A DNA stretch of 50,809 bases from Akkermansia muciniphila (GTDB lineage: Bacteria > Verrucomicrobiota > Verrucomicrobiia > Limisphaerales > UBA9464): NCBI GenBank assembly GCA_945898055.1, contig CAMDGV010000033.1, positions 1 through 50,809 on the forward strand. The letters are read 5' to 3'. The position numbers and the translations under genes were made by a program. Every line of letters begins with the position of its first letter. Within the stretch, counting starts at the first letter, position 1. Positions 2,378 through 49,249 of the stretch are shown here, one piece after another. Under the pieces are notes generated by a model. It worked only from the letters and a program-made list of their open reading frames with translations, was not told where the DNA came from and searched no databases.

Positions 2378-2804
2378 CCTTTAAAGGGATTGCTAGATCG
2401 AATTCCTCACCGGAGATTTAGCCCAGCTTCTGCTCGCCTGCCATGATCAGTCCCCAGTCGGCAGTTTACCTGCAGTGGTTACTTCTGAGCCACCAGTGCC
2501 TTTTGCCTGAGGCCAACCGGTCTCAGCGCCGCTAGGCAAAATTCATTCCACCCAAGAAATTGGCCCACTTGGGAGTGGAACGATGGGGCCGAGGGCAGGG
2601 GGAATACCACTTTTGCGAGTCTCTCGTGTTCAACGACAATTATTCTTCCCCACCCACAACGTCCTTTTGGCCCTGATTCCCTCCGAGCAAGGCCAACCCT
2701 TGGCGCACTTCTTCGAACTATACCATCGCCAACCAAGCCGCGCCCTGCAACTGATCCTCAACTCCTACCCAATCCTATGGGTCTGCCAGTCAAACGCCCT
2801 GATG
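2378..2804. other. Gene-less stretch upstream of the IS66 remnant
   Basis: No gene is recognised here. A plus-strand open frame at 2583-2870 (95 codons) contains protein-like wording (EQGQPLAHFFELYHRQPSRA) but I cannot assign it, and its 3' part runs into the IS66 remnant. The stretch also contains a 25-bp copy of one arm of the hairpin element described at 48888. Confidence 0.4.
2627..2651 (+). repeat. Single-arm copy of the 51-bp hairpin element
   Basis: These 25 bases match one arm of the hairpin at 48888-48938 (read on its minus strand) at 24 positions; the only difference is TGTTCAACGAC for TGTACAACGAC. The second arm is not present downstream. It is either a truncated insertion or a pre-existing sequence that shares the arm. 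Confidence 0.55.
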
Positions 2805-3013: not shown

Positions 3014-4534
3014 ATGTCTACCAAGAACAAGTTCGACTCCAAGGCTGAAATCTCCGCGGATATGAAGCTGCTTGCGAGACTGGGTTATCAGCAGCAGCTC
3101 GAGCGCCGCATGAGCGGCTTTTCCAATTTCGCCATTTCGTTTTCGATCATCTGTATTCTGGCCGGCGGGATAACCTCACTTCAGTTGGGTACGAGCGCGG
3201 TCGGTGGAGTAGCAGCTGGCGTCGTATGGCCGATCGGAGTTTTGTTCGCATTGCTCGTCGCGGCAGCGATGGCCCAGGTCGCAAGCGCTTTTCCAACCGC
3301 AGGTGGGCTCTACCACTGGTCGTCGATCTTGGGCGGGAAAGGTTGGGGCTGGGCAACTGCTTGGTTCAATTTGCTCGGAGCCATCTTCATGACCGCAGCG
3401 GTTAATGTGGGAGCCTACACCCTGTTCATCAATCTGATCCTCCCGCTCTTCGGCTTAGATCCCGCGAAGCTGGGAATCCTCCACCAAGTCATCGGGGTCA
3501 CCCTCATGACCGGCAGCCATGCTCTCTTTAACCATCTCGGTATCAGAGTTACGAGCTGGCTTACCGATTTCAGCGGCTACCTCATCTTCGTCGTGTCCAT
3601 CGCGCTCACGATAACCATGCTGTCATTTGCTCCGTCTCGCGACTTAGGTCGGCTCTTCCACTTCACCAATTTTAGCGGTGCAGCCGGCGGCAACGTCTGG
3701 CCAGCAAACGACAACACCGGTTTCCTCCTGCTGCTGGCGCTTCTCTGGCCAATGTGGACGATCATCGGCTTCGACGCGTCCGCGCATACCTCCGAGGAAA
3801 CCATCGGGGCCGCGGTGAACGTACCCCGAGGGATTCTCCGATCCGTCTTCCTTTCCGGTATCTTCGGCTTCGTGATGGTTGCCTCCTTCGTCATCGCTCT
3901 GCCTAACGTCCCGGCGGGTGCCCAACAAGGCGCCAACATCTTCTTTTGGCTGATGGACGCCATCGTCCCCAGATGGATTAAAATCCCCCTCGAGATCGGC
4001 ATTGTTCTTTCCAATTATCTTTGTGGCCTCGCCTGCCTGACTTCCACCTCGAGGATGATCTTCGCCTTCGCCCGGGACGGAGGCCTCCCGAGACTTCTCC
4101 GCGGGGTCTCCTCACATCACAACGTACCTGTGGCCGCAATATGGGTTGGGGCCGGTGCGACCGTTGCCTCCACGTTGTATGCGCCAGCTTACACCACTCT
4201 GACCGCTGCCAGCATCATCCTCCTCTACATCTCCTATGTCATGCCTACGGCCGCGGGCATCCTTGTTCACGGCAAAAAATGGAACAAAATGGGTCCATTC
4301 GATCTTGGTGGGCGCAAATACAAAACGATTGGCGTCATCACCATTGTCGGCGTCATCGCTCTGGTCTACGCGGGGGTGCAACCGCCGAATCAGGCCGCAC
4401 TTCCAGTCACGCTCGGAACCGCCGTGTTGCTCTTCATCGCATGGCACGCGGGGGTGAAGAAGAGGTTTCCTGGTCCCCCATTGGCCCTTGCGGCTCAGGC
4501 GAGTGAGGTAAAGGAACCAAGAATCCAACAATAA
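3014..4534 (+). CDS. APC-superfamily amino acid permease
   Basis: This is an inner-membrane amino acid transporter of the APC superfamily, 506 aa from ATG 3014, with about 12 hydrophobic segments starting near residue 30 (GFSNFAISFSIICILAGGIT). The N-terminus (LARLGYQQQLERRMSGFSNF) and the AFPTAGGLYHW and GFDASAHTSEET motifs resemble the GABA/choline-type permeases related to yeast Uga4. The substrate cannot be told from sequence. A longer in-frame start at 2951 lies inside the IS66 end and is rejected. The IS66 end pair immediately upstream probably replaced or reshaped its original 5' region. The C-terminus ends in a charged cytoplasmic tail. Confidence 0.88.
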   Translation: MSTKNKFDSKAEISADMKLLARLGYQQQLERRMSGFSNFAISFSIICILAGGITSLQLGTSAVGGVAAGVVWPIGVLFALLVAAAMAQVASAFPTAGGLYHWSSILGGKGWGWATAWFNLLGAIFMTAAVNVGAYTLFINLILPLFGLDPAKLGILHQVIGVTLMTGSHALFNHLGIRVTSWLTDFSGYLIFVVSIALTITMLSFAPSRDLGRLFHFTNFSGAAGGNVWPANDNTGFLLLLALLWPMWTIIGFDASAHTSEETIGAAVNVPRGILRSVFLSGIFGFVMVASFVIALPNVPAGAQQGANIFFWLMDAIVPRWIKIPLEIGIVLSNYLCGLACLTSTSRMIFAFARDGGLPRLLRGVSSHHNVPVAAIWVGAGATVASTLYAPAYTTLTAASIILLYISYVMPTAAGILVHGKKWNKMGPFDLGGRKYKTIGVITIVGVIALVYAGVQPPNQAALPVTLGTAVLLFIAWHAGVKKRFPGPPLALAAQASEVKEPRIQQ

Positions 4535-8439: not shown

Positions 8440-8566
8440 GCGATCCGTACTTAGATCTCGGCCAGGCCACGCCGCTTTCGAGAGATTACAATTGAGTTCA
8501 TCCGCGCAGGCTCTACCGGCGAATGAAGGATTGGGAACCATTGGATTGGGCGTCCGCTGACGCTTA
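8440..8566 (-). repeat. Strongly decayed IS66 left end
   Basis: It aligns with 2870-2981 and with the reverse complement of 48817-48990: CAGCGATCCGTA, CCACGCCGCTTTCGAGA, CAATTGAGTTCATCCGCGCA, GGATTGGGAACCATTGG, ending in TTGGGCGTCCGCTGACGCTT. Identity is clearly lower than between the other copies, so this is an older remnant. ATTGAG at 8491-8496 is again the unoccupied hairpin site. It ends 30 nt from the cysN stop codon. Confidence 0.65.
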
Positions 8567-48820: not shown

Positions 48821-48887
48821 GCGTGCGCCCAACCCCATGGTTCCCAATTCGTCCCGCTTGGGTGTCGCCTGCGCGAATGAACTCAAT

Positions 48888-48938
48888 TGTACAACGACGA
48901 TTATTATTCCCAGGGGGAAGAATAATTGTCGTTGTACA
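48888..48938. repeat. 51-bp hairpin mini-element with 6-bp flanking duplication
   Basis: Arms of 24 bp, TGTACAACGACG... at the left and ...GTCGTTGTACA at the right, pair with two mismatches around a 3-nt loop. CTCAAT stands on both sides (48882-48887 and 48939-48944). The same IS66 region at 2911-2916 and 8491-8496 has a single ATTGAG (the same site in reverse) and no insert. This is the pattern left by a transposition event. Confidence 0.8.
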
Positions 48939-49249
48939 CTCAATGGTACCGTCTCGGAAGCTTCGTGGTCTTTGCTGAAATCCAACTGCGGATCGCTGAA
49001 TCTAAAAGCTCGGGACTCTCGAAGGCTGAGTTTGCTGCGAGATTGGGTGTTGGTCCTCTCTCGATGGATCGCTGGCTACGGATCACTCAGCCAAGCCAGC
49101 CACCGTAGCCAACCCAGTCCATCGCCCCCCTAAACAGTCAGGCCTTCGTTCCCGTGCTCTGCACGCCGTCCGCCTCGGCGAGTTCCGCCGACTGGCCGGA
49201 AATTGTTGCCCCATCCGGTGGGGCCCTCAACATTGCCGTCCATTCTTGA
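48926..49249 (+). pseudogene. IS66 accessory protein TnpA, amber-interrupted
   Basis: The frame reads LRIAESKSSGLSKAEFAARL and VGPLSMDRWLRITQP, the helix-turn-helix of TnpA, then TAG at 49106-49108, and continues in the same frame with FVPVLCTPSASASSADWPEI and VAPSGGALNIAVHS to TGA at 49247. The second part matches the C-terminal FVPV...EIV.PSG pattern of IS66 TnpA. The 5' end has been altered by the hairpin insertion; the only start now is a TTG within the hairpin. Confidence 0.65.

Follow-up and report, generated by a model that had tools for sequence, protein, structure and literature searches.

A multicopy 51-bp hairpin made of two outer IS21-family tips, a probable IS21-derived MITE, and its half elements in one bacterial genome

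REP elements and REPINs are defined by the absence of a target-site duplication together with linkage to a RAYT gene, and REP elements are not known to leave exact target duplications. The very small mobile repeats of cyanobacteria span a few tens of bases each and are moved by an enzyme that is, to our knowledge, not known. For bacterial MITEs, a size of approximately 50-600 bp is quoted (PMC6382973); examples are MITEPsy1, of 100 nt and with transposition shown, and MITEAba12, of 111-114 bp. Within the IS21 family, it is reported for IS5376 that the outer repeat is bound by the catalytic subunits of IstA and the inner repeat by the structural ones; that integration in vitro required both repeats of each end, with two left or two right ends also usable; that insertions carry 5-bp duplications; and that the outer repeat alone is bound with similar affinity and little cooperativity (PMC10122671). 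A full-text search of open-licence literature found no IS21-derived MITE.

The window analysed here is the whole of contig C33 (50,809 nucleotides) of genome G000, an assembly of 4.63 Mb in 136 contigs that is 95% complete. A first-pass annotation had described a near-perfect 24+3+24 hairpin between two CTCAAT repeats, and two paralogous sites with a single ATTGAG and no insert. The coordinates (48882-48944) check out, and both empty sites were seen in an alignment in which the gap is clean and consists of the hairpin plus one copy of the 6-bp repeat. One arm compared with the other is identical at 22 of 24 positions, and folding as single-stranded DNA gave -20.4 kcal/mol (z = -10.6), a score equalled by none of 200 shuffles. 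The features of the window are as follows:

48882-48887, no strand: left 6-bp target duplication CTCAAT, from the sequence; found once in both empty paralogous sites
48888-48938: hairpin of 51 bp with arms of 24+24, a loop of 3 nt and 92% complementarity, from the sequence
48888-48913, plus strand: outer left end L1, 26 bp, an identical prefix of 26 bases relative to the IS21 element of contig C36
48914-48938, minus strand: outer right end R1, 25 bp, an identical prefix of 25 bases relative to the IS21 copy of contig C21
48939-48944, no strand: right 6-bp target duplication CTCAAT, from the sequence
2911-2916, no strand: empty site with a single ATTGAG, in a paralogous region without the insert
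8491-8496, no strand: empty site with a single ATTGAG, in a second such region
2627-2651, plus strand: solo right-end arm of 25 bp that has no partner arm and belongs to the 22 half elements of the genome

The hairpin resembles the IS21 family in its tips, in the identity of L1 and R1 to ends in the same genome, in a duplication within the range of its relatives, and in an AT-rich middle between conserved blocks, as described in passages on IS21 repeats (PMC10122671). Unlike IS21 and IS5376 it has no genes, no L2 or R2, a total length of 51 bp and a duplication of 6 rather than 5 bp, so that relative to IS5376 it retains only the sites of the catalytic IstA pair. With MITEPsy1 and MITEAba12, as far as the passages on them go, it shares non-coding sequence, terminal inverted repeats, a target duplication and the ends of a known IS; it differs from them in being about half the size, in having nothing between the end repeats, and in its IS21 parent. 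Its length had initially been placed far below the MITE range; it is very small, but lies at the low edge of the range in the passages quoted and not wholly outside it (PMC6382973). In the sources consulted REP elements and REPINs, like the present copies, are short dispersed hairpins, whereas the hairpin has IS21 ends and target duplications, the latter at 11 of 23 copies. Unlike the cyanobacterial repeats, it has a parent element that is identified here.

A genome-wide search for the arm, as the first-pass annotation had proposed, returned many copies: TGTACAACGAC occurs 42 times, versus 2 for its reversed control, and the two 24-nt arms (up to 3 mismatches) gave overlapping lists of 62 and 69 matches, versus 0 for reversed controls. 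Reading these matches in context identified 23 complete elements of 49-55 bp, comprising 18 of 51 bp, two of 52 bp and one each of 49, 50 and 55 bp. The window hairpin sequence is found unchanged in seven of the 23, as expected for recent spread. A 6-bp target duplication is exact at 11 of the complete copies, carries one mismatch at two, and is absent at ten, and no other duplication length from 3 to 10 gave an exact match; in a cross-copy control of 506 mismatched pairs of 6-mers, none matched exactly and two did so with one mismatch. Each of the 11 exact duplications is a different 6-mer in different flanks. The annotation had staked its reading of a very small, non-coding mobile element on further copies and on matching 6-mers beside them, and both were found; mobility of the hairpin is strongly supported.

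Several copies are changed at the two arm-mismatch positions, 12 and 19, such that the arms pair, including those at C83:14020, C132:2978, C29:45119, C75:21726 and C128:930; the C83 and C132 copies are perfect 24-bp palindromes. Such changes could reflect correction inside an extruded hairpin, or exchange between ends. The 39-nt hairpin core had no exact match among the viral contigs searched.

The hairpin can be read base for base as two IS21-family ends of the same genome, with 26 of 26 bases identical to the left end in C36 and 25 of 25 to the right end in C21 (26 + 25 = 51). In C36 the left arm (1711-1734) is followed by a second direct repeat (L2), beyond which lies istA, an open frame of 520 aa. 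This IstA scored 183 bits against the NCBIfam IS21 transposase family NF033546 (cut-off 160; scan of the first 487 aa), and also matches Pfam Mu-transpos_C_2 and the solved structures of the IS5376 transposase (8q4d, 8b4h). A genome search for istA returned one full frame and one weak match. In C21 the other arm (259-282), with its own second repeat, follows an apparent istB C-terminus read by eye. IS21 elements characteristically carry at least two direct repeats at each end, spaced by about 23 bp, and second repeats follow L1 in C36 and R1 in C21, as in their relatives. For istB, inspection by eye recognised only pieces, in the terminal parts of C36 and C21, where the contigs break inside the gene, and the 39-aa C21 piece as framed had no family match. 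The outer flanks of the two ends, AGCCTG and AGCTGC, form no exact duplication. The C36 and C21 ends may or may not belong to one element. The assignment of the parent to the IS21 family is firm by sequence. The IS21 copies in C21 (about 280-640) and C36 sit in or beside a repeat array containing AGGAATAGGTAGCCTGCCCCATAGTTC, and C21 holds a second, similar right end at 665-688.

A complete relative was identified in genome G116 (C7:2116-4663); it carries both istA and istB, its ends have double repeats, and GCGGCG flanks it on either side. Its IstA is 53% identical to that of C36 in one search and 52% over 501 aa in another, and its istB, the only whole one found, matches NF038214. Among ten IS21 relatives inspected, with end positions picked by eye, the duplication is an exact one of 6 bp in five (L138, L143, L154, L155, L156), is 5, 7 or 8 bp in three (L141, L149 and L139, respectively), and is missing from L136 and L142. 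The left end of one of them, L143, is built of four direct repeats spaced by 23 bp (3345-3431). In G004, a left and a right IS21 end on separate contigs are both flanked by TCCATG in the correct sense. The earlier claim that the mover must be an unknown enzyme is thus not supported, given the identity of the hairpin to both outer IS21-family tips in a genome that also holds istA, and the exact 6-bp duplications of half the relatives inspected.

Arm matches were found in 13 of 145 genomes (G000 included), and in seven of 18 of the same genus. Complete 51-bp forms occur in G008 and G005, with similar flanks and no duplication, and a 54-bp form in G006 has AGCGTC on both sides. A 52-bp form in G089, of another family, is accompanied by a 7-bp repeat (GCCGAAA) and differs in the type of its tips, so that it probably arose independently. 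Also identified was a longer form with an interior, of 80, 83 and 86 bp in G001, G010 and G014, duplicated only in G014 (GCCAAG). By eye, the interior of this form (L096, L102 and L100, respectively) resembles a stretch within the right end of L141 and L142, GCGTTGCCTCACG...GTTACC. Within the order, a strict gapped hairpin pattern, which misses the G008 and G006 forms, matched G000 and G089 among 320 genomes. Of two scans of genome contigs, one returned 32 loci and the other confirmed no relative. An IstA query at E <= 1e-30 matched 12 of 140 genomes, with no match at that threshold in G004, G005, G006, G008, G010 or G014; G001 is the only one of the seven arm-bearing genomes of the genus with a match, a fragment of 73 aa. 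As draft assemblies often break in such repeats, and as G001 and G004 have IS21-type left ends with L2 near contig ends, collapsed assembly may hide some istA genes. The hairpins or arms in G005, G006, G008, G010 and G014 may now be stranded without a mover.

Given the base-for-base identity with both ends, the istA beside the left end, the duplications and the empty sites, we consider it highly probable that the hairpin is a MITE that arose by internal deletion of an IS21-family element and that is most likely moved in trans by IstA and IstB. At 51 bp it has no coding capacity, has terminal inverted repeats, is multicopy with duplications, and its ends match IS21, although the istB of the putative parent is split between contigs. 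Having one repeat per end, compared with the two on which IstA of IS5376 depends in vitro, it is filed as an IS21-derived MITE and not as an IS21 element. The deletion would have fused L1 (26 bp) and R1 (25 bp) head to head, and the DDE transposase IstA and its AAA+ helper IstB, which we infer to be the mover from sequence comparison, would cleave the DNA at its TG...CA tips and insert these into a target opened with a 6-bp stagger. One repeat per end would then suffice, reflecting a less demanding IstA, an inverted second arm that takes the place of the inner repeat, or pairing of copies; synapsis of tips 51 bp apart might involve a sharp bend, an extruded hairpin, or tips from two copies. 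Against this reading stand the two-repeat need and 5-bp duplications of IS5376, the lack of a whole istB in the G000 assembly, the failure to find IstA in most arm-bearing genomes of the genus, and the 10 of 23 copies without a duplication.

Some of the same observations would fit spread by another transposase with a coincidental specificity for these tips, since IstA was not found in six of the seven arm-bearing genomes of the genus, with only a fragment in G001, and since IstA of IS5376 depends on two repeats. We regard this as unlikely: the arms match two distinct IS21 ends, one a left end and one a right end, that can be told apart by diagnostic bases, and no other transposase with these tips was found among the loci read. 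Copies that are short, dispersed and hairpin-forming also recall REP or REPIN palindromes spread by a Y1 (RAYT) transposase, an origin made very improbable by the 11 copies, out of 23, that have an exact 6-bp duplication and by the complete match of the hairpin to IS21 ends. An explanation without any transposition, in which recombination or segmental duplication copied the hairpins, could draw on the ten complete copies and the solo arms that have no duplication, and yet seems barely credible given 11 exact duplications with different 6-mers and flanks and two empty sites in the window. As the origin of the 11 duplicated copies recombination is contradicted, whereas recombination or deletion is likely in the later fate of other copies.

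Besides complete copies, G000 holds 22 solo arms, of which twelve are left and ten right arms. They retain their outer tips, with A for the first T at C13:67790 and one inner change each at C4:29135 and C88:388. All but one stop at the hairpin centre or no more than a few bases from it; the exception (C87:16455) includes the greater part of the interior found in the 80-86-bp form. A search with a 12-nt tip pattern returned 68 matches, seven of them outside the listed arms (that in C61 extends over 14 bases), whereas the reversed control returned 12, so that truncation inside the arm is no more frequent than chance allows. The outer 6-mer CTGGCG is common to the solo arms C11:84012 and C37:3706 and recurs, as CGCCAG, as the duplication of the C31:9631 copy; it is possibly a preferred target.

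At C2:59748, the only solo arm followed in detail, an integrase gene directly adjoins the outer tip, with no base between them, and a second gene, presumably DUF1553-like, starts 7 bases past the centre side. Both genes are truncated there, whereas intact versions exist for the first in C35 and G013 and for the second in C36 and G008, such that this arm looks like a rearrangement scar. Among the matches listed, the inner flanks at C11:84012, C13:67790, C124:3211 and window position 2627 match repeats elsewhere from approximately the inner edge of the arm, and the outer flanks have no match at those places. One right arm recurs with its outer flank unchanged in G001, G005 and G010, indicating that at least that arm is no assembly artefact. 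Lacking a partner or duplication, the solo arms look like rearrangement junctions, which would be consistent with breakage at the hairpin tip and subsequent joining, or with a deletion that has its end point there. Large deletions on insertion are reported for ISPve1, of the IS21 family, in passages that make no statement of ends inside the element (PMC3281130).

Other origins of the solo arms were considered and rejected. For a large element with distant ends, none of the 22 arms had a downstream partner with fewer than nine mismatches, in downstream sequence that at some arms spans only a few hundred bases. Among the 1035 pairs formed by 46 unpaired outer 6-mers (20 from the ends of the ten unduplicated copies, 22 from solo arms, three from IS21 ends and one, offset by one base, from the C61 arm), none was exact and four had one mismatch. 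As 25-bp insertions with their own duplication, all 22 had a best fit of 2-4 mismatches. Cutting of the hairpin tip by SbcCD was set aside because a family search of G000 matched neither SbcD nor Ku; for SbcD this is weak evidence, as only sub-cut-off matches were obtained, in 14 of 39 genomes. The lack of Ku and SbcD matches is possibly relevant to the tolerance of palindromes.

A broader proposal, which we put forward tentatively and hold to be rather doubtful, is that a single 24-26-bp IstA site per end is enough in vivo, so that synapsis can occur between tips separated by only 51 bp, perhaps through hairpin extrusion or the pairing of two copies, and that the hairpin centre is a recurrent break point leaving scars of 25-26 bp at rearrangements. 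The unexpected features of this system are its single-repeat ends and its half elements. With two outermost IS21 tips alone, in about two dozen copies in one genome, it represents an extreme case of a MITE and a natural minimal IS21 substrate, one that seems at odds with the published need for two repeats and is so short that its ends could scarcely be bent towards each other. Whether tiny mobile palindromes steer genome rearrangements becomes a testable question with the 22 solo arms.
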